Shown here: piece by piece, positions 16,242 to 46,187 of the stretch | Layout: the number at the start of each line of letters is the position of its first letter | Position numbering within the stretch: position 1 is the first letter of the stretch | Assembly: GCF_000818015.1 (NCBI RefSeq) | Contig: NZ_CP007511.1 | Coordinates: 1,412,001 to 1,476,000 of the forward strand | Length of the DNA: 64,000 nucleotides | Direction: 5' to 3' | Origin: Stutzerimonas balearica DSM 6083 | GTDB taxonomy: Bacteria > Pseudomonadota > Gammaproteobacteria > Pseudomonadales > Pseudomonadaceae | Notes under the pieces: generated by a model | Database searches by the model: none | The model's input: only the letters and a program-made list of their open reading frames with translations | What the model was told of the DNA's origin: nothing | Program-made: the position numbers and the translations under genes

Positions 16242-16370
16242 GCGAGGACCCTAGCACGCGGGCCACCCCAGCGTGTGGCGCGGCGTCACAGCCGAGGGTG
16301 ACGGTCGGGCTGGGGCGATGCGTGCTTTGCGCGTAAAATGCGCGGCTTTGCATTCCTCCGGACATCCACC

Positions 16371-17195
16371 ATGGGCACCCTTTCGGTCAACCAGAACAAG
16401 CTGCAGAAGCGCATTCGCCGCCTGGCCGGCGAAGCCATCACCGATTTCAACATGATCGAGGACGGCGACAAGGTCATGGTCTGCCTGTCCGGCGGCAAGG
16501 ACAGCTACACCATGCTCGACGTGCTGCTCTATCTGCAGAAGGTCGCGCCGATCCGCTTCGAGGTGGTGGCGGTAAACATGGACCAGAAGCAGCCGGGCTT
16601 TCCCGAGCATGTCCTGCCCGAGTACCTGAAGGCGCTGGGGGTCGAGTACCACATCATCGAGAAGGACACCTACTCGGTGGTCAAGGAGAAGATCCCGGAA
16701 GGCAAGACCACCTGCTCGCTGTGCTCGCGCCTGCGCCGTGGCACGCTGTACACCTTCGCCGACGAGATCGGCGCGACCAAGATGGCGCTCGGGCACCACC
16801 GCGACGACATCCTCGAGACCTTTTTCCTCAACATGTTCTACGGCGGCACGCTCAAGGCCATGCCACCCAAGCTGCTTTCCGACGATGGCCGCAACGTGGT
16901 GATCCGTCCGCTCGCCTACTGCAACGAGGCGGACATCGAAGCCTATTCGAAGATGAAGGAGTTCCCGATCATCCCGTGCAACCTCTGCGGCTCGCAGGAG
17001 AACCTGCAGCGTCAGGTGGTCAAGGAAATGTTGCAGGAGTGGGAGCGCAAGTCGCCGGGGCGCACCGAGATCATGTTCCGGGCGTTGCAGAACGTGGTGC
17101 CGTCGCAGTTGGCCGATCGCAACCTGTTCGACTTCAAGAGCCTGCGCATTGACGACAACGCCACGCCGCGCTTCGTCGAGGTGATGAGCCTGTAG
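16371..17195 (+). CDS. ttcA: tRNA 2-thiocytidine(32) synthetase TtcA
   Basis: Iron-sulfur enzyme that thiolates C32 in certain tRNAs. The 274-aa product carries the PP-loop ATP site SGGKDS (about 44-49) and two CXXC pairs, CSLC and CNLC, that hold the [4Fe-4S] cluster. The start [10 protein letters not shown] is the usual one for pseudomonads; an in-frame ATG 33 nt upstream is weaker. Monocistronic, followed by a palindromic repeat at 17215-17283. Confidence 0.95.
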
Positions 17196-17214: not shown

Positions 17215-17283
17215 CGTAGGGCGGGCCTCAGCCCGCCATGCGCGTCCACGAGCTGGCGCGGTGGGCTGAAGCCCACCCTACGT
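17215..17283. repeat. Palindromic intergenic repeat (second family)
   Basis: About 69 bp beginning GTAGGGCGGGCCTCAGCCCGCC and ending GGTGGGCTGAAGCCCACCCTAC (each arm 22 bp with a self-complementary core GGGC-TCA/GAA-GCCC). The outer GTAGGG/CCCTAC ends are shared with the elements at 7.4 and 13.2 kb but the arms differ. It sits 20 bp after the ttcA stop and may act as a terminator or mRNA-stabilising structure. Confidence 0.75.
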
Positions 17284-17372
17284 ATGAAGCCCCCCTAGCA
17301 AGCTTCTTCGCCAGGCGGGTTGAAAGCCGCACGCCCGGCGGGGTATGGTTCGGCCATCGTCTGGAGATCAGC

Positions 17373-17501
17373 ATGTCCCTGAAACCCGTAGCCGTTCACG
17401 TTGTCGATGCCGGTGCCATGTGCGCTGCGCTCGTTCGTGGGCAGATTGCGGCTGCGGTCTATTACTTCTTTGGGTATTGGTTTAGCCATAGGCGCGCCTG
17501 A
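17373..17501 (+). CDS. Aromatic-rich leader peptide 1 (probable attenuator leader)
   Basis: A 42-residue reading frame beginning ATGTCCCTG, with a GGAG ribosome site 7 nt upstream. Near its end it holds AVYYFFGYWFSH, in which seven of eight consecutive residues are Tyr, Phe or Trp except one Gly. The stop at 17501 lies 52 nt before a 14-bp perfect terminator stem. Leader peptides with clustered codons for the end product, followed by a terminator, are the classical layout of transcription attenuation in amino-acid operons. The gene downstream is a DAHP synthase, first enzyme of aromatic amino-acid synthesis. Regulation by charged Tyr, Phe or Trp tRNA is inferred; alternative pairing was not computed. 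Confidence 0.75.
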   Translation: MSLKPVAVHVVDAGAMCAALVRGQIAAAVYYFFGYWFSHRRA

Positions 17502-17553
17502 TACCCCACAGGCGGCCTAGCAAGCAGGGTCGCCACCAGAGACGTTTTCCAAG

Positions 17554-17594
17554 AAACCCCCGGTCGGCAACCCGACCGGGGGTTTTGTTTTTTT
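17554..17594 (+). terminator. Strong intrinsic terminator (probable attenuator)
   Basis: A perfect 14-bp stem (17554-17567 with 17572-17585, loop CAAC) is followed by TG and a run of T. It lies between leader peptide 1 and the DAHP synthase gene, so readthrough must be regulated if the promoter is upstream of leader 1. GGGTATTGGTTT in the aromatic codon run could pair in part with AAACCCCC of the left arm, a possible antiterminator; this is inference. Confidence 0.92.
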
Positions 17595-17630
17595 CCGGCC
17601 ATCACGGCCAACGCAACGAGGAAATGAGCC

Positions 17631-17729
17631 ATGACTACTTACCGCACCGACCGTTACTACCGCTACGACTGGCGATTTAGCCGCTTCACCGCCGCCGCGC
17701 TCAAACCTCACGACCGAACACTCGACTAG
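17631..17729 (+). CDS. Tyr-rich leader peptide 2 before DAHP synthase
   Basis: A 32-residue reading frame with a strong ribosome site (GAGGAAATGAGCC then ATG). It opens MTTYRTDRYYRYDWRF: four Tyr, one Trp and one Phe in 16 residues, with Arg between. It lies after the terminator and ends 44 nt before the DAHP synthase start. A hairpin at 17731-17754 separates its stop from the next ribosome site. The composition argues for a regulatory leader rather than a stable protein. It could be a second, translational control layer or a reinitiation leader. No homologue is recalled. Confidence 0.6.
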   Translation: MTTYRTDRYYRYDWRFSRFTAAALKPHDRTLD

Positions 17730-17730
17730 C

Positions 17731-17754
17731 GCCGACGCGGGAAACCGCGCCGGC
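17731..17754 (+). promoter_or_regulatory. Hairpin between leader 2 and DAHP synthase ribosome site
   Basis: GCCG-A-CGCGG pairs with CCGCG-C-CGGC around a GAAA tetraloop, 9 base pairs with one mismatch. No T-run follows, so it is not a terminator. It ends 2 nt before the AAGGAA ribosome site of the DAHP synthase and begins right after the leader 2 stop, where a stalled or terminating ribosome would disturb it. Confidence 0.6.
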
Positions 17755-17772
17755 CGAAGGAATCGCCAGATC

Positions 17773-18849
17773 ATGCATACCACCGCTACCGCCCAGAGCC
17801 TCATCGAGCCCAGTCCCAGCCAGGCTGGCGCCGCCCGCCGCAGTGCTCAACCCTTGCCCAGCCCCGCCGTCCTGCGTCAGCGCCTGCCCCTATCGGACGC
17901 GCTTGCCGCACGTGTACACGATGATCGCAACGCCATCCGCGCCGTGCTCGATGGTCGCGACCCACGCCTGTTGGTCGTCGTCGGCCCCTGTTCCCTGCAT
18001 GACCCCGTCGCCGCGCTGGAATACGCCGAACGTCTCGCCGCGCTGGCACCGGAGCTGAGCGACCAGCTGCTGCTGGTCATGCGCGCCTATGTGGAGAAGC
18101 CTCGGACCACCGTGGGCTGGAAAGGCCTGCTCTACGATCCGCATTTGGACGGCCGCGGCGACATGGCCGAGGGCTTGCGCCTGTCGCGTCGATTGATGCT
18201 GGACATCCTCGAAGCCGGACTGCCGTTGGCCACCGAGCTGCTGCAACCGATGGCGGCCAGCTACTTCGACGATCTGCTTGGCTGGGCCGCGATCGGCGCG
18301 CGCACCAGCGAGTCGCAGATCCACCGTGAGCTGGTCAGCGGGCTGGACTTGCCGGTGGGCTTCAAGAACGGCACCGACGGCAGCCTGACCATCGCCTGCG
18401 ATGCGATGCGCTCGGCCGCGCATCCCCATCGGCATTTCGGCATCGACGCGCTGGGCCACCCGGCGCTGCTGGAAACCCACGGCAACCCCGACACGCATCT
18501 CGTTCTGCGCGGCGGCCATCGCGGGCCGAATCACGATGCCGCGAGCGTGGCGCAGGCCCGGGCAGCGCTGGCCAAGCAGGGGATTGCCGTGCGGCTGGTG
18601 GTCGATTGCAGCCACGCCAACAGCGGCAAGGACCCCCTGCGCCAGCCGGCCGTGCTGGCAGAGGTTATCGAGCAGCGGCTGGCCGGCGATGTCAGCCTGC
18701 GCGGCGTGATGCTCGAGAGCAATCTGTTCGATGGTTGCCAGCCGCTGTCCGGCGAGCTGCGTTACGGCGTGTCGATCACCGATGGCTGCCTGGGCTGGAT
18801 CGGCACCGAGCGGCTGCTGCGCGAAACCGCCGAGGCGCTGCGCGGCTGA
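17773..18849 (+). CDS. Type I 3-deoxy-7-phosphoheptulonate (DAHP) synthase
   Basis: First enzyme of the shikimate pathway: condenses phosphoenolpyruvate with erythrose 4-phosphate. The 358-aa protein is of the AroF/AroG/AroH (type I-alpha) class. Seen are VVVGPCSLHDP (about 69-79), the metal and substrate region YVEKPRTTVGWKGL, FKNGTDGS, LRGGHRGPNHD and VDCSHANSGKDP. The N-terminal extension, where the feedback amino acid binds, is present. Which of the three letters applies depends on feedback specificity, which cannot be read here; the Tyr-rich leaders hint at a Tyr-responsive enzyme. The start is set by the AAGGAA site upstream. It follows two leader peptides and a terminator. Confidence 0.93.
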   Translation: MHTTATAQSLIEPSPSQAGAARRSAQPLPSPAVLRQRLPLSDALAARVHDDRNAIRAVLDGRDPRLLVVVGPCSLHDPVAALEYAERLAALAPELSDQLLLVMRAYVEKPRTTVGWKGLLYDPHLDGRGDMAEGLRLSRRLMLDILEAGLPLATELLQPMAASYFDDLLGWAAIGARTSESQIHRELVSGLDLPVGFKNGTDGSLTIACDAMRSAAHPHRHFGIDALGHPALLETHGNPDTHLVLRGGHRGPNHDAASVAQARAALAKQGIAVRLVVDCSHANSGKDPLRQPAVLAEVIEQRLAGDVSLRGVMLESNLFDGCQPLSGELRYGVSITDGCLGWIGTERLLRETAEALRG

Positions 18850-42159: not shown

Positions 42160-42250
42160 GGAGAGGTGGCCGAGTGGCCGAAGGCGCTCCCCTGCTAAGG
42201 GAGTACACCTCAAAAGGGTGTCGGGGGTTCGAATCCCCCCTTCTCCGCCA
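42160..42250 (+). tRNA. tRNA-Ser (anticodon GCT)
   Basis: A 91-nt class II tRNA. The acceptor stem is GGAGAGG/CCTTCTCC, and the anticodon loop CTGCTAA lies in a CTCCC/GGGAG stem, giving anticodon GCT. A long variable arm and an encoded CCA end are present. It reads AGC/AGU Ser codons. Confidence 0.95.
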
Positions 42251-42291
42251 TATTGCATGATCGGGTGGTTTGTCAGAGTGCTTTGTTGCTC

Positions 42292-42319
42292 TTGACGCTA
42301 AGGTTTACCACCCTATAAT
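42292..42319 (+). promoter_or_regulatory. Strong sigma-70 promoter of tRNA-Arg(ACG) pair
   Basis: -35 TTGACG at 42292-42297 and -10 TATAAT at 42314-42319, 16-nt spacing, 13 nt before the first tRNA-Arg. Confidence 0.8.
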
Positions 42320-42332
42320 GCGCACCCTTAGC

Positions 42333-42409
42333 GCACTCATAGCTCAGCTGGATAGAGTACTCGGCTACGAACCGAGCGGTCGGAGGTTCGAATCCTCCTG
42401 AGTGCGCCA
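42333..42409 (+). tRNA. tRNA-Arg (anticodon ACG), copy 1
   Basis: A 77-nt tRNA. Acceptor GCACTCA pairs with TGAGTGC, discriminator G, encoded CCA. The anticodon stem CTCGG/CCGAG with loop CTACGAA gives ACG, read as inosine-CG for CGU/CGC/CGA. Confidence 0.95.
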
Positions 42410-42473
42410 TATCATGAAGCCTCGTTCTGCGGGGTTTATGAAGCCAGGGCGGTCTGGTTTAAAAAACGCACAC

Positions 42474-42550
42474 GCACTCATAGCTCAGCTGGATAGAGTA
42501 CTCGGCTACGAACCGAGCGGTCGGAGGTTCGAATCCTCCTGAGTGCGCCA
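42474..42550 (+). tRNA. tRNA-Arg (anticodon ACG), copy 2
   Basis: An identical 77-nt copy, with a 64-nt spacer. It likely belongs to the same transcript, ended by the terminator at 42555-42586. Confidence 0.95.
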
Positions 42551-42554
42551 TTTG

Positions 42555-42586
42555 AAAAGGGCCTGCAGAAATGCAGGCCCTTTTTT
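42555..42586 (+). terminator. Intrinsic terminator after the tRNA cluster
   Basis: AAAAGGGCCTGCA pairs with TGCAGGCCCTTTT and ends in a T-run. It is placed 5 nt after the tRNA-Arg CCA end and can serve the converging DUF4124 gene as well. Confidence 0.92.
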
Positions 42587-42591
42587 ATTGG

Positions 42592-43077
42592 CTAGCGCTT
42601 GGTGGTTACGCAGCCTTCGTTGTCGAGGGTGACGGTCCGGCTTCGTCCGCGCTCGCTCTCATAGCGCCACTGGGTCCTGCCGTTAGTTGTTGCCACTCTG
42701 TCAGGCGTGCCTAGGGCGCTCTGCACGTCCTCTTGGGTCATTCCAGGCACTATCCGTTTCTCGATGATGGCCCTTCGGCGATCTCTGCTGGTCAGCTGGC
42801 TTCCGCATTTGTCGTGATGAGTGCCGACGACTACGAGCTCTCTGGCTTCGCCTTGACTGGCGCGTGGCTTGCTTGAGGGCGCCCTGCGCCTCGGATTGCT
42901 GTGGTCGGTGCTGACGTTGCTGATCTTTTGCGGTTTGCCGATCATTTCTTCGGGACAGCCCTGCTGGCGAAAGCTGACATGGTTGGCGCTGTCGACGCAG
43001 CGGTAAACAGTGGTGGCATGTGCGCTGGTGCCTGCGCAGGCGAGCAGGCACCAGGCCAAAACGGTATGTCTTGGCAT
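42592..43077 (-). CDS. DUF4124 protein with C-terminal BamE/SmpA-like motif
   Basis: A 161-aa exported protein. A signal peptide ends at about residue 21 (AHA). The DUF4124 part follows directly as TTVYRCVDSANHVSFRQQGCP, with two Cys that may form a disulfide. The C-terminal part, KRIVPGMTQEDVQSALGTPD and QWRYE, has the BamE/SmpA-like 'GMT..V...LG.PD' pattern. Function unknown. The ribosome site (GAGGACG) lies before the ATG. It faces the tRNA cluster. Confidence 0.75.
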   Translation of the reverse strand: MPRHTVLAWCLLACAGTSAHATTVYRCVDSANHVSFRQQGCPEEMIGKPQKISNVSTDHSNPRRRAPSSKPRASQGEARELVVVGTHHDKCGSQLTSRDRRRAIIEKRIVPGMTQEDVQSALGTPDRVATTNGRTQWRYESERGRSRTVTLDNEGCVTTKR

Positions 43078-43390
43078 TCTCGTCCTCCTTGACGTTTGAC
43101 TGGCATATCGAGCCTAGCGCTTCTTGCGTCGTGCGAGGGAGGGTGTCTTCGCCGCTCGTGATGACGTCGACACTGCAGGAGGCGGATTTGTGTTGCGCAA
43201 CTACTTGTATTGTCACTGAAAGCTCGCATTGCTGAGCCGCTGCGGTGTTATCATTGCGCGGTCCGCCCCGTTGGGCTTGTAGAAACAAATCCCCCTCATG
43301 GACTTACCCAGTAGTCGTTCCAAATTCCTGCCTGCCCGCTTGATTGTCTGATTCTCCCGGCGTGCCCCAGAGCTGGGGGTGGAGTGCGCC
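43078..43390. other. 313-bp divergent gap with mgtE 5' leader
   Basis: No gene of usual size. A TTATCAT -10-like box lies at 43248-43254, without a good -35. A 17-codon frame starts with ATG at 43298 (MDLPSSRSKFLPARLIV) but has no ribosome site. A short hairpin (CCCCA 43365-43369 with TGGGG 43374-43378) ends 2 nt before the mgtE ribosome site GGAG at 43381-43384. No M-box-like aptamer was recognised. Confidence 0.4.
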
Positions 43391-44824
43391 ATGACCGAAG
43401 TAGAAGCCAAGAAGCCACAAGAAACACTGCAGGATCGCCTGGCGCAGGTGCTCGAACTGCTGCATCGCCATGATCTTGCTGAGGCGCTCGCCCAGCAGCA
43501 TGGCGGCGAATCACTGACGGATCCTGCTCAGATCGATGATCTCGCGCAGTTGCAGTTGAGGCTCGACGAGCTGCACCCTGCAGACGTTGCCCACATTCTC
43601 GAAGCGCTTCCGCTCGATGAGCGCCTCGCTGTCTGGCAGCTGGTCAAGACCGAGCGAGACGGCGATATCCTGCTTGAAGTGTCGGACGCGGTCCGTGAAA
43701 CGCTGATCGCCGACATGGATGATCAGGAGCTTCTTGCGGCGGCCAAGGAGATGGACGCCGACGAGTTGGCTGATCTCGCGCCGGAGTTGCCTCGCGACGT
43801 CGTTCACGAGTTGATGGAAAGCCTGGACGCCCAGCAGCGCGAGCGCGTCCGCTCCGCGTTGTCCTACGATGAGGACCAGGTCGGCGCGTTGATGGACTTC
43901 GAGATGGTCACCATCCGGGAAGATGTCAGTCTGGAAGTGGTATTGCGCTATCTGCGTCGTCTCAAGGAGCTGCCAGGGCATACCGACAAGCTGTTTGTGG
44001 TCGATTACGACGGTGTGCTCAAAGGTGTTCTGCCGATAAAGCGGTTGCTGGTCAATGATCCCGAAAAACAAGTCGCCGAGGTGATGGCCACCGATCCGGT
44101 GACCTTTCATCCCGATGAAGATGCTTACGAGGCTGCGCAGGCTTTCGAGCGATACGATCTTGTTTCAACGCCCGTTGTCGATAAGGGGGGCAAGCTGATC
44201 GGGCGCCTGACCATCGATGAAATGGTCGACCTCATTCGCGAAGAGAGCGAGAGTGAAGTTCTCAACATGGCGGGCCTTCGCGAAGAGGAGGATATCTTCG
44301 CCTCGGTATGGAAGTCAGTGCGTAACCGTTGGGCCTGGCTCGCTGTCAATCTGGTCACTGCGTTTCTGGCTTCCCGTGTAATTGGGTTGTTTGATGGCTC
44401 GATCGAAAAGCTGGTCGCCCTGGCTGCGCTTATGCCGATCGTCGCGGGAATTGGCGGCAACTCCGGAAATCAAACCATCACCATGATCGTGAGAGCCATG
44501 GCGCTGGATCAGGTCGGTACAGGCAATACCCTGCGGCTGTTGCGCAAGGAGGCCGGCGTGGGGTTGGTCAACGGCCTGTTGTGGGGTGGGGTGATAGGTT
44601 TCGTCGCGTATTGGCTGTACGGTAACTGGGCGCTGGGCGTGGTGATGACTGCGGCAATGACGTTGAATTTGCTGCTGGCTGCGCTTATGGGGGTGCTGAT
44701 TCCTATGACGTTGGCGCGACTTGGGCGAGACCCTGCGATGGGTGCGAGCGTCATGATCACTGCGATGACCGACAGCGGTGGTTTTTTCATCTTCCTGGGG
44801 TTGGCGACACTGTTCCTGCTATAG
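43391..44824 (+). CDS. mgtE: Magnesium transporter MgtE
   Basis: A Mg2+ channel of 477 aa. The cytoplasmic part has an MgtE N-domain (about 40-140, LHPADVAHILEALP; DELADLAPELP) and two CBS domains (about 150-270) that close the pore when Mg2+ is bound. Five membrane segments follow, with PIVAGIGGNSGNQT, the pore-lining signature. GGAG 6 nt upstream fixes the start at 43391; an in-frame ATG 12 nt earlier contains the ribosome site. Confidence 0.95.
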   Translation: MTEVEAKKPQETLQDRLAQVLELLHRHDLAEALAQQHGGESLTDPAQIDDLAQLQLRLDELHPADVAHILEALPLDERLAVWQLVKTERDGDILLEVSDAVRETLIADMDDQELLAAAKEMDADELADLAPELPRDVVHELMESLDAQQRERVRSALSYDEDQVGALMDFEMVTIREDVSLEVVLRYLRRLKELPGHTDKLFVVDYDGVLKGVLPIKRLLVNDPEKQVAEVMATDPVTFHPDEDAYEAAQAFERYDLVSTPVVDKGGKLIGRLTIDEMVDLIREESESEVLNMAGLREEEDIFASVWKSVRNRWAWLAVNLVTAFLASRVIGLFDGSIEKLVALAALMPIVAGIGGNSGNQTITMIVRAMALDQVGTGNTLRLLRKEAGVGLVNGLLWGGVIGFVAYWLYGNWALGVVMTAAMTLNLLLAALMGVLIPMTLARLGRDPAMGASVMITAMTDSGGFFIFLGLATLFLL

Positions 44825-44846
44825 GTAGGTGTTTGGTCGCTAGCAC

Positions 44847-44879
44847 AAAAAAGCCGGCGAACAACGCCGGCTTTTTTTA
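44847..44879 (+). terminator. Intrinsic terminator after mgtE
   Basis: AAAGCCGGCG pairs with CGCCGGCTTT around AACAA and is followed by seven T. It stands between mgtE and the opposite-strand amrZ. Confidence 0.92.
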
Positions 44880-44900
44880 TGTCTCGCGGCAGCGAGCCTG

Positions 44901-45227
44901 TCAGGCTTCGTCCTTGGCCAGCTCGGTATCTTGCGCAATCAGTGCGATCAAGGCGTTCTGCTGGCGGTGGGTGAGCTGGCGGAACCGCTGAAGCAGTTCG
45001 CGCTCGTGAAGACTCAGCTCAGGGCTATCGAGTCGCATGTTCAGATCATCATCCAGCGCGCCCTCCTGCAGAAGGCTCTGCTCGAGTCGTGCAATGATCT
45101 CTGAGTTCATGCTTCGGTGGTGGTTGCGTGATACCTCGGCGATACGCTCGCGCATGCCGTCAGGTAACCGAACCACAAATTTGTCAGCCGTGCGGCTGGA
45201 ATAAACTGCCTGTTTCATTGGGCGCAT
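44901..45227 (-). CDS. amrZ: AmrZ, ribbon-helix-helix alginate and motility regulator
   Basis: A 108-aa Arc-family DNA-binding protein, nearly identical to P. aeruginosa AmrZ (AlgZ) along its length. The ribbon-helix-helix segment (about 14-66) includes the DNA-contacting KFVVRLP strand and [19 protein letters not shown]. The C-terminal part has [26 protein letters not shown], which in AmrZ mediates tetramer formation. In P. aeruginosa AmrZ activates alginate genes and represses fleQ. Start MRPMKQ as in homologues. Confidence 0.95.
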
Positions 45228-45448
45228 AGTAAAACCGGTTAGTCAGGTTGCGTGGTAGCGAATTGCCGTGGAAGTCATCGGTCTGACAACCGCCCACCCG
45301 CGCTGTTCCGCTTGTCCTGAAAAAACTATAGATGGTCGGCTTGCTGACGCCAATTGTACGTCTTCAGCTTGATTAGTAAAGGCGTTTTGCTATCAGAAAG
45401 CCAATGTGTGACCGGCTGCCCATGCGCATGGTGCTGTTGCACTGCGTG

Positions 45449-45634
45449 CTAGCGCAGGATGGGATCGAACTTCACTCGACGCCCGATCAGCAGGCCGGCG
45501 AACGTCGAGAGACTGAATATCGCCATGCCGTACTGGCTGACAGCGCGAGCTGCTTCGCTTGGCGCCCAGAGTGCGGTCAATCCGCATATGGCCAACAGGA
45601 CAAGGCTATAAGCCGCTAGCTTGGACATTCTCAT
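45449..45634 (-). CDS. Small two-span membrane protein, unknown
   Basis: A 61-aa protein with two hydrophobic segments (about 7-24, AAYSLVLLAICGLTALWA, and about 37-50) and a basic loop and tail (GRRVKFDPILR). GGAGG lies 3 nt before the first ATG and 9 nt before a second ATG (45628), so either start may be used. It follows the small frame at 45651-45875 by 16 nt and may share its transcript. No homologue is recalled. Confidence 0.55.
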   Translation of the reverse strand: MRMSKLAAYSLVLLAICGLTALWAPSEAARAVSQYGMAIFSLSTFAGLLIGRRVKFDPILR

Positions 45635-45650
45635 TTTCCTCCAAGGATCG

Positions 45651-45875
45651 TCAGAACACCCAGCGCTGGGCTCTGGTGGGGGCGATGATGTGATCGCCGC
45701 TGAGATTGAATAGCTTGGCCGTGGGATGCCGATTCGGTTGGGGGGAGATCGAGCGTGCGTAGGTGGCGGCTGGGCTGGCGTTGGCAGCGTGCTTTTCGGC
45801 GGAGGGCAGCTGCAGGGCAAATGCCGCGGCAATCGAGACAGCTGTGGTGCTGATCAAATAAAGGGGCTTCGGCAT
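45651..45875 (-). CDS. Small exported protein, unknown
   Basis: A 74-aa frame with a signal-like N-terminus (MPKPLYLISTTAVSIAAAFA). The mature part is polar and ends APTRAQRWVF. An AAGGAAA ribosome site lies about 9 nt upstream. With the next gene it forms a probable two-gene unit between amrZ and a tRNA-Arg. Function unknown. Confidence 0.45.
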   Translation of the reverse strand: MPKPLYLISTTAVSIAAAFALQLPSAEKHAANASPAATYARSISPQPNRHPTAKLFNLSGDHIIAPTRAQRWVF

Positions 45876-46071
45876 CTCTGCGTTTCCTTCGCGATCGAAA
45901 GTTCAATGCGAAATGCATAGCAGGTGTTGTGCCAAGCAGTTTTATACGAAAAAAATGTTGTAAATCAATAAGTTATGCTTTCAGCTCTAGCGCCTGCGAT
46001 TTGCACTTTGCAAGCTCTGCCTGATGGCTTCGTGCAAAATGCAAGGGGATAAATGACAGCCGGCGCGGGGC

Positions 46072-46100
46072 ATGACAAACATGCCGGGGGTCGTTAACAT
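46072..46100 (+). promoter_or_regulatory. Promoter of tRNA-Arg(CCT)
   Basis: -35 ATGACA at 46072-46077 and -10 TAACAT at 46095-46100, 17-nt spacing, ending 10 nt before the tRNA. Confidence 0.6.
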
Positions 46101-46110
46101 GCGCCCCCGA

Positions 46111-46187
46111 GTCCCAGTAGCTCAATTGGATAGAGCATCCCCCTCCTAAGGGGAAGGTTGTGAGTTCGAACCTCGCCTGGGACGCCA
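46111..46187 (+). tRNA. tRNA-Arg (anticodon CCT)
   Basis: A 77-nt tRNA. Acceptor GTCCCAG pairs with CTGGGAC, discriminator G, encoded CCA. The anticodon loop CTCCTAA in a CCCC/GGGG stem gives CCT, which reads AGG. Confidence 0.95.

Follow-up and report, generated by a model that had tools for sequence, protein, structure and literature searches.

Organization of the leader region

The window, meaning the whole stretch of 64,000 nucleotides that was analysed, contains a DAHP synthase gene of the aroFGH type whose ATG lies at 17773. The stretch between ttcA and this gene is made up of a first leader peptide, an intrinsic terminator, a second leader peptide and a GAAA-capped hairpin, with the following features:

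16338-17195: ttcA, the gene upstream of the leader region
17320..17349, plus strand: promoter-like site TTGAAA-18-TATGGT for the whole leader, score 9 of 12
17363..17366, plus strand: Shine-Dalgarno sequence GGAG of leader 1, from the sequence
17373..17501, plus strand: leader peptide 1, 42 amino acids, with Tyr/Phe/Trp codons at 30-33 and 35-37 (17460-17483)
17459..17582, plus strand: match to Rfam RF00627, 'Pseudomonas sRNA P15', 100.2 bits (gathering score 70)
17554..17594, plus strand: intrinsic terminator T and its T-tract, stem 17554-17567 with 17572-17585
17618..17622, plus strand: Shine-Dalgarno sequence GAGGA of leader 2, from sequence and alignment
17631..17729, plus strand: leader peptide 2, 32 amino acids, with Tyr4/9/10/12, Trp14, Phe16 and Phe19
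17731..17754, plus strand: GAAA-capped hairpin between the leader 2 stop and the Shine-Dalgarno sequence of the DAHP synthase
17773..18849, plus strand: DAHP synthase (aroFGH type, type I), the regulated gene; TIGR00034 aroFGH at 433 bits, PF00793

The product of leader 1 (start 17373) is MSLKPVAVHVVDAGAMCAALVRGQIAAAVYYFFGYWFSHRRA. The original prediction, made from the DNA letters, described this anatomy, and it was recovered in full. The run YYFFGYWF of leader 1 has seven aromatic codons in eight, and the claimed perfect terminator has 14 perfect pairs, the loop CAAC and then the T-tract. Leader 2 has 32 codons with Tyr at residues 4, 9, 10 and 12 as well as Trp14, Phe16 and Phe19, and the GAAA-capped hairpin is present at 17731-17754, adjoining the ribosome site of the DAHP synthase. 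As a chance comparison, 88 open reading frames of 15-60 amino acids with an ATG and a Shine-Dalgarno-like site were taken from both strands of the 64-kb window; leader 1 ranks first among these small frames in aromatic density (7 in 12 residues) and leader 2 second (6 in 12).

Of the 154 loci that carry both leaders (see below), 128 have their best promoter-like site at -52 to -56 relative to leader 1, and the scores upstream of leader 1 range from 6 to 9 over all loci. Between the terminator and leader 2, the score is at most 6 in 138 of these loci and 7 to 9 in 16. The best score in the window there is 5 of 12, indicating that the strong promoter at 17595-17630 that would speak against the original prediction is not predicted in the window.

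Other elements of the surroundings can be described briefly. Two REP-like inverted repeats, GGCGGGCTGAGGCCCGCC (minus strand) and GGTGGGCTGAAGCCCACC, lie at 17220-17277 between ttcA and the leader promoter, and no further copies were found within the window at up to 3 mismatches. Four tRNA genes are located in 42160-46184, three of them at 42160-42547. The second DAHP synthase of this genome (G000:C1:1821004-1821996, L215) lies outside the window and is 52% identical to the first; no leader of this kind was seen before it.

Conservation and distribution of the two leaders

The RF00627 match runs from the last part of leader 1 into the terminator, and Rfam files P15 as an sRNA. Matches were obtained in 36 of 58 genomes (own genome included), that is, in 36 of 37 genomes of the genus, whereas none of the 21 genomes belonging to the order's other families gave one. 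In the family of the window, taken as Pseudomonadaceae, 244 of 298 genomes have a match. All 13 of the 54 P15-negative members that were searched lack this DAHP synthase. Each has one DAHP synthase match, 50-54% identical, which is the same identity class as the L215 gene. In these 13 loci a single short open reading frame with four aromatics was found (L249), and TGGCGATTTA was found in none. As far as tested, the leader and this DAHP synthase go together.

Loci for comparison were collected by DAHP synthase similarity (80 named loci kept) and from P15 matches. It had been predicted that both frames would be conserved in relatives, and leader 1 was recognized together with leader 2 in 154 of the 157 loci examined, all but L093, L167 and L183. 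For loci picked by P15 the presence of leader 1 is guaranteed, and that of leader 2 is not. The 25 loci selected by DAHP synthase similarity alone (L032-L056) all contain both leaders, and they are the most similar of the named loci. Among the other 55, a filter for at least 4 aromatics in 12 residues within 600 nt upstream picked out one locus with leader 1 and the terminator (L093) and three with other short frames (L061, L065 and L066). The 154 loci hold 140 distinct leader 2 sequences. The loci are related by descent, with effective sequence numbers of about 28 and 17.

At the level of codons, the Tyr-rich N-terminal part of leader 2 has a third-position bias of 0.46, with 811 synonymous versus 676 non-synonymous single changes, and the neighbouring non-coding stretches give 244:656 and 83:202. 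The C-terminal part of leader 2 (1244:1821) is intermediate, as is the variable part of leader 1 (1158:1762), where codon-position bias is weak. Leader 1 ends in a TGG TTT run in 154 of 154 loci, similar to the run in leader 2; this count is partly built in, given that leader 1 was chosen by an amino-acid motif and, in many loci, through the P15 model as well.

In a class-wide search with model R1, 19 of 369 genomes gave matches, two of them from the genus. The other genomes contributed 17 loci (L220-L236), of which four contain a DAHP synthase; the 13 without a DAHP synthase in the locus were set aside as probable chance matches. In L221 and L222, from another family of the order, the DAHP synthase is accompanied by both leaders. 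In L220 and L223, from another family of the class, leader 1 and the DAHP synthase are present and a leader 2 of the WRF type was not seen, and L093 (a Marinobacter MAG, positions 1100-1460) has leader 1 and the terminator with no recognizable leader 2. The occurrence of leader 1 alone in L093, L220 and L223, all outside the family, suggests gain or loss of the second stage.

More distant DAHP synthases have other short aromatic-containing frames upstream (L061, L065 and L066). These include MYVFWIEFFTSYGIVSPPH in L061, 142-82 nt before the match, and MTRTWRSYVSFFFFPLRG in L065, 146-89 nt before the match, which are possibly unrelated leader peptides.

Alternative structures around leader 1

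The helices of the leader 1 region were defined from ten loci folded with the ribosome-covered part cut. In addition to the terminator T, they are:

17472..17506, plus strand: terminating helix A, formed by 17472-17477 and 17501-17506; paired in 95-97% of cells, with a single doubly changed cell
17511..17534, plus strand: terminating helix B, formed by 17511-17517 and 17527-17534; paired in 97.4% of cells, with two doubly changed cells
17495..17514, plus strand: alternative helix A', 17495-17500 with 17509-17514; 80.7% of cells paired; competes with A and B
17527..17573, plus strand: antiterminator helix, 17527-17537 with 17562-17573; 91.8% of cells paired; competes with B and T

RNA folding thus bears out the expectation of mutually exclusive structures in the leader 1 region. 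RNAalifold on the same region gives mainly the terminator. Over 65 non-redundant loci, 96.8% of the cells of A, B and T are paired (96.7% for the 14-bp helix of the terminator), and 21 cells have changed on both sides, 18 of them in T, 2 in B and 1 in A. When compared with 500 shuffles, four of five measures for these helices beat 500 of 500 and the fifth beats 495. The antiterminator side, A' and the antiterminator taken together, is 87.6% paired versus 33-45% when slid, and its covariation shows no excess over shuffles in the 65 loci.

The predicted effect of a ribosome on leader 1 was evaluated on the same 65 loci. In RNA ending before the terminator, helix B forms to 0.79 without a ribosome; a ribosome placed on the stop codon raises this to 0.92, and one stalled at Trp/Phe lowers it to 0.41. 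Under the stalled ribosome it goes down in 43 loci and up in 5, with A' up to 0.50. This order fits that which a trp-type attenuator would need. A ribosome usually reaches about 12-15 nt, and stalls at codons 31-37 would cover the 5' strand of A and leave A' free; the aromatic cluster is within this span. When the RNA is cut inside the terminator, the antiterminator is predicted at 0.56 with the leader free, 0.73 with the ribosome stalled and 0.69 with the ribosome at the stop codon.

In the window itself, static folds give no such switch: helix B stays at 0.86-0.90 under the stalled ribosome, A' remains low and is weaker than B, and the antiterminator of the cut RNA is at 0.98-1.00 whether a ribosome is present or not. 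When the leader is folded in full, the terminator is obtained every time. Since the leader 1 folds of the window are unchanged by ribosome position, the case for the first stage is drawn from the relatives and from the anatomy. By anatomy, this stage is a trp-type attenuator, and it is highly probable that leader 1 and P15 form a leader-peptide transcription attenuator as a family; that the variant in the window works in this manner is less certain.

Leader 2 and the ribosome site of the DAHP synthase

Beyond the terminator, two further segments are predicted to interact:

17669..17678, plus strand: anti-ribosome-site strand in leader 2, c+TGG CGA TTT, codons 14-16
17757..17772, plus strand: DAHP synthase ribosome site, with Shine-Dalgarno sequence AAGGA at 17757-17761; 17760-17769 pairs with 17669-17678

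In the predicted duplex, the codons for Trp14-Arg15-Phe16 pair with the 3' part of the Shine-Dalgarno sequence and the spacer, and the duplex of the window outdoes all 100 shuffled strands. A ribosome on leader 2 was modelled as 31 nt barred from pairing, and the accessibility of the ribosome site was taken as the unpaired fraction of -12..+3. For the window, this fraction is 0.22 without a ribosome and 0.65 when the A-site is placed from -2 to +4 codons of Trp14. It is 0.53 at -4, 0.57 at +6 and 0.36 at +8, and at the remaining even offsets between -12 and +16 it differs from the starting value by no more than 0.05. The computed accessibility of the window therefore rises for stalls at codons 10-22 only, a zone that includes Tyr10, Tyr12, Trp14, Phe16 and Phe19. 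The Shine-Dalgarno sequence alone goes from 0.32 to 0.57 in the window on stalling.

The relatives were separated into two types, the long type comprising the P. fluorescens and P. putida groups and the Halomonadaceae. For 89 short-type loci the mean accessibility of the ribosome site goes from 0.39 to 0.53 on stalling, up in 63 and down in 6, and a ribosome at the stop codon gives no gain. In these 89 loci the Shine-Dalgarno sequence alone is at 0.52 in both states, and only the spacer and the start open. In a non-redundant set of 39 short-type loci, a stall at Trp14 gives a gain of 0.11, and from +10 on the gain is approximately zero; stalls 6-12 codons upstream also give gains of 0.04-0.05. 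Only 26% of the short-type duplexes reach p<0.05 against shuffled strands. Pairing with the ribosome site continues into the flanks slightly more often than chance would give (p about 0.046, 19 distinct combinations), and CGCCA or TGCCA is found near the start in 91 of 154 loci.

For 63 long-type loci the gain on stalling is small, from 0.47 to 0.53 (up in 17, down in 4). Their pairing of leader 2 with the ribosome site is mostly absent or weak, the duplex being on average no better than shuffled strands.

The GAAA-capped hairpin has a mean z of -2.1 over 153 loci, with 47% below -2, and does not form in L053 and L056. The distance from the leader 2 stop to the ATG of the DAHP synthase is mostly 36-50 nt (15-50 in 150 loci). 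A frameshift fusing leader 2 to the DAHP synthase was considered and rejected, given that the frame between them is not fixed (frames 2, 0 and 1 in 61, 55 and 38 of 154 loci). In this genome, leader 2 is somewhat more likely than not to act as a translational attenuator.

The TGG CGA TTT element

The Trp-Arg-Phe codons TGG CGA TTT are kept in 151 of 154 loci, and CGA and TTT are each kept in 151 of 154. Both codons are rare in the DAHP synthase genes of the same loci, where CGA accounts for 128 of 4164 Arg codons and TTT for 55 of 683 Phe codons. The near-invariance of the element in all clades is left unexplained by the pairing with the ribosome site, since only some clades keep this pairing. 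A single conserved partner for TGGCGATTT was searched for against shuffled strands in the ribosome site, the P15 region, the start of leader 2 and the tail. None of these four regions provided a universal partner across loci; only the short-type ribosome site stands out, with a mean z of -1.17 (the P15 region there gives -0.68). A mutual-information scan of the whole leader gave nothing usable beyond the terminator, since effective numbers of 28 and 17 left too much noise. A second genomic site of TGGCGATTTA was also considered, and the one other exact match was read as chance within coding sequence.

In the long type, two helices, S1 (CCGYUCGG:CCGAYCGG) and S2 (UGCCGCC:GGUGGCA), follow in pseudoknot order 9 nt after TTT. 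In 44 loci, 91.1% of the S1/S2 cells are paired and six cells have changed on both sides, a number reached in 0 of 500 shuffles, with the caveat that one S1 pair is unpaired in 39 of the 44 and that a slide of +3 scores higher covariation.

Pseudoknot-like helices just after TGGCGATTTA are seen in L053, L055, L056, L221, L037-L044 and other long-type loci, and the helix pair is common to the Halomonadaceae and the P. fluorescens and P. putida groups. A further in-frame stretch, CGA ACA C before the leader 2 stop (17715-17721), keeps its nucleotide sequence in most loci, and the search for a strand with which it could pair found none.

Proposed mechanism and alternative explanations

We propose a two-stage control of the DAHP synthase in which ribosomes read aromatic starvation, a model that we regard as somewhat favoured over its negation. 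In the first stage, which would act on transcription, a ribosome moving freely over leader 1 in fed cells would let A and B form, and the terminator would stop RNA polymerase and release a short P15 RNA. In starved cells, lack of Tyr, Phe or Trp would halt the ribosome near codons 31-37, where it would cover the 5' strand of A. A' would then replace B, and the freed 17527-17537 would capture the 5' arm of the terminator, allowing transcription to continue. In the second stage, acting on translation of the read-through mRNA, leader 2 would pair through its Trp-Arg-Phe codons with the ribosome site of the DAHP synthase and keep it shut, and a ribosome stalled at Tyr10-Phe19 during starvation would occupy this blocking strand and open the site.

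The frames and their conservation, the terminating helices and the competing pairings were computed directly, and in predicted folds the position of the ribosome affects helix B over the 65 loci and the ribosome site in the window and in most short-type loci. From these we infer stalling in vivo, changed read-through and translation and the sensing of Tyr, Phe and Trp all together. The first stage presumably operates in the genome of the window as it would in its relatives. The two checkpoints of the original prediction, transcription and then translation, thus hold in part. For this genome and the short type they are favoured by the conserved frames, the mutually exclusive folds of the relatives and the predicted leader 2 switch, and they are weakened by the insensitivity of the window's leader 1 folds to ribosome position and by the weak or absent pairing with the ribosome site in the long type. 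For this genome and its relatives of the short type, no reading is better supported than transcription followed by translation; for the long type, its support is weak.

A more far-reaching version is put forward only tentatively. The two leaders would be serial aromatic sensors of different principle, the output would be read-through times translation, the sensing codons of leader 2 would themselves be the blocking strand, and TGG CGA TTT, together with the pseudoknot-like fold 9 nt on in the long type, would be a new sort of programmed ribosome-pause element.

It is unlikely, in our estimate, that only leader 1 and the P15 terminator regulate, with leader 2 loading ribosomes for translational coupling or mRNA protection and sensing nothing. 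In its favour, the anatomy of leader 1 is by itself that of a complete attenuator, a WRF-type leader 2 was not seen in L093, L220 and L223, which have leader 1 and the DAHP synthase, and the leader 2 stop lies mostly 36-50 nt from the ATG of the DAHP synthase. However, leader 2 remains rich in aromatics throughout the 154 loci though other residues vary, its Tyr-rich part is coding-biased (811:676, against 244:656 and 83:202 in non-coding stretches), and the predicted effect of stalling in the window is centred on the aromatic codons. The conservation of TGG CGA TTT in rare codons in 151 of 154 loci, even without ribosome-site pairing, would also be consistent with leader 2 pausing ribosomes at this element and at the long-type pseudoknot-like fold, and so controlling Rho-dependent termination or RNase cleavage. 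The position of the long-type element, 9 nt before helix S1 of a fold with 91.1% of cells paired, points in the same direction. Nonetheless, in the window and in most short-type loci the element is predicted to pair with the ribosome site, and its occlusion to open that site; such control is regarded as improbable.

A reading of P15 as a small RNA that acts in trans, with the leader peptides as mere bystanders, is very improbable. The Rfam description, 'Pseudomonas sRNA P15', favours this explanation, and a terminated RNA of presumably about 240 nt could accumulate. Yet in the loci read the match takes in the aromatic-rich end of a conserved frame that precedes one particular DAHP synthase, an enzyme missing from all 13 P15-negative genomes that were tested. 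An additional trans role of the released P15 RNA beside control in cis is possible. The preferred reading continues to be the two-stage control, in which the almost frozen TGG CGA TTT codons constitute a testable puzzle over the further role of this element.

Relation to known systems

Attenuators of amino acid operons, of the trp, phe and his type of E. coli, act by ribosome-mediated attenuation of transcription. The leader described here is similar to them in having a leader peptide rich in codons for the product, mutually exclusive hairpins and an intrinsic terminator before the gene. It is unlike them in that leader 1 clusters all three aromatics (7 of 8 codons) and that a second leader peptide follows. 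The proposal is that the entry enzyme of the shikimate pathway is tuned to all three aromatic amino acids.

The P15 RNA of RF00627 is the same RNA as that covered by its match in the window. In contrast with its filing as an sRNA, it begins here with the last codons of a leader peptide and has the terminator as its 3' part, and an RNA matched in 244 of 298 genomes of the family thereby gains a likely mechanism. In the part of PMC2527527 that bears on it, P15 is described as possibly a riboswitch. The open-access literature searched yielded no paper that treats P15 as an attenuator of the leader-peptide kind or describes a leader peptide ahead of this DAHP synthase; an earlier prediction is possible in the original P15 report or in the 2004 survey of proteobacterial attenuators.

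In leader-peptide translational attenuation, a ribosome stalled on an upstream open reading frame switches the gene on, and the second stage would work like an attenuator of this kind. An example is ermB with two leader peptides (PMC8274638), where stalling depends on an antibiotic; codon starvation is proposed here instead, and the sensing codons themselves would form the blocking strand. In the tandem attenuators mgtM and mgtP of Salmonella mgtCBR (PMC3641672), both control transcription and they respond to different signals, ATP and proline. The present leader is like mgtCBR in that two successive short open reading frames within one leader would each influence expression, and unlike it in that both are aromatic and the second appears translational. 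If the second stage is true, it would represent an unusual natural stacking of transcriptional and translational attenuation in one leader. When the locus was evaluated as a tandem attenuator, both open reading frames and the candidate switches were found to be present in one leader.
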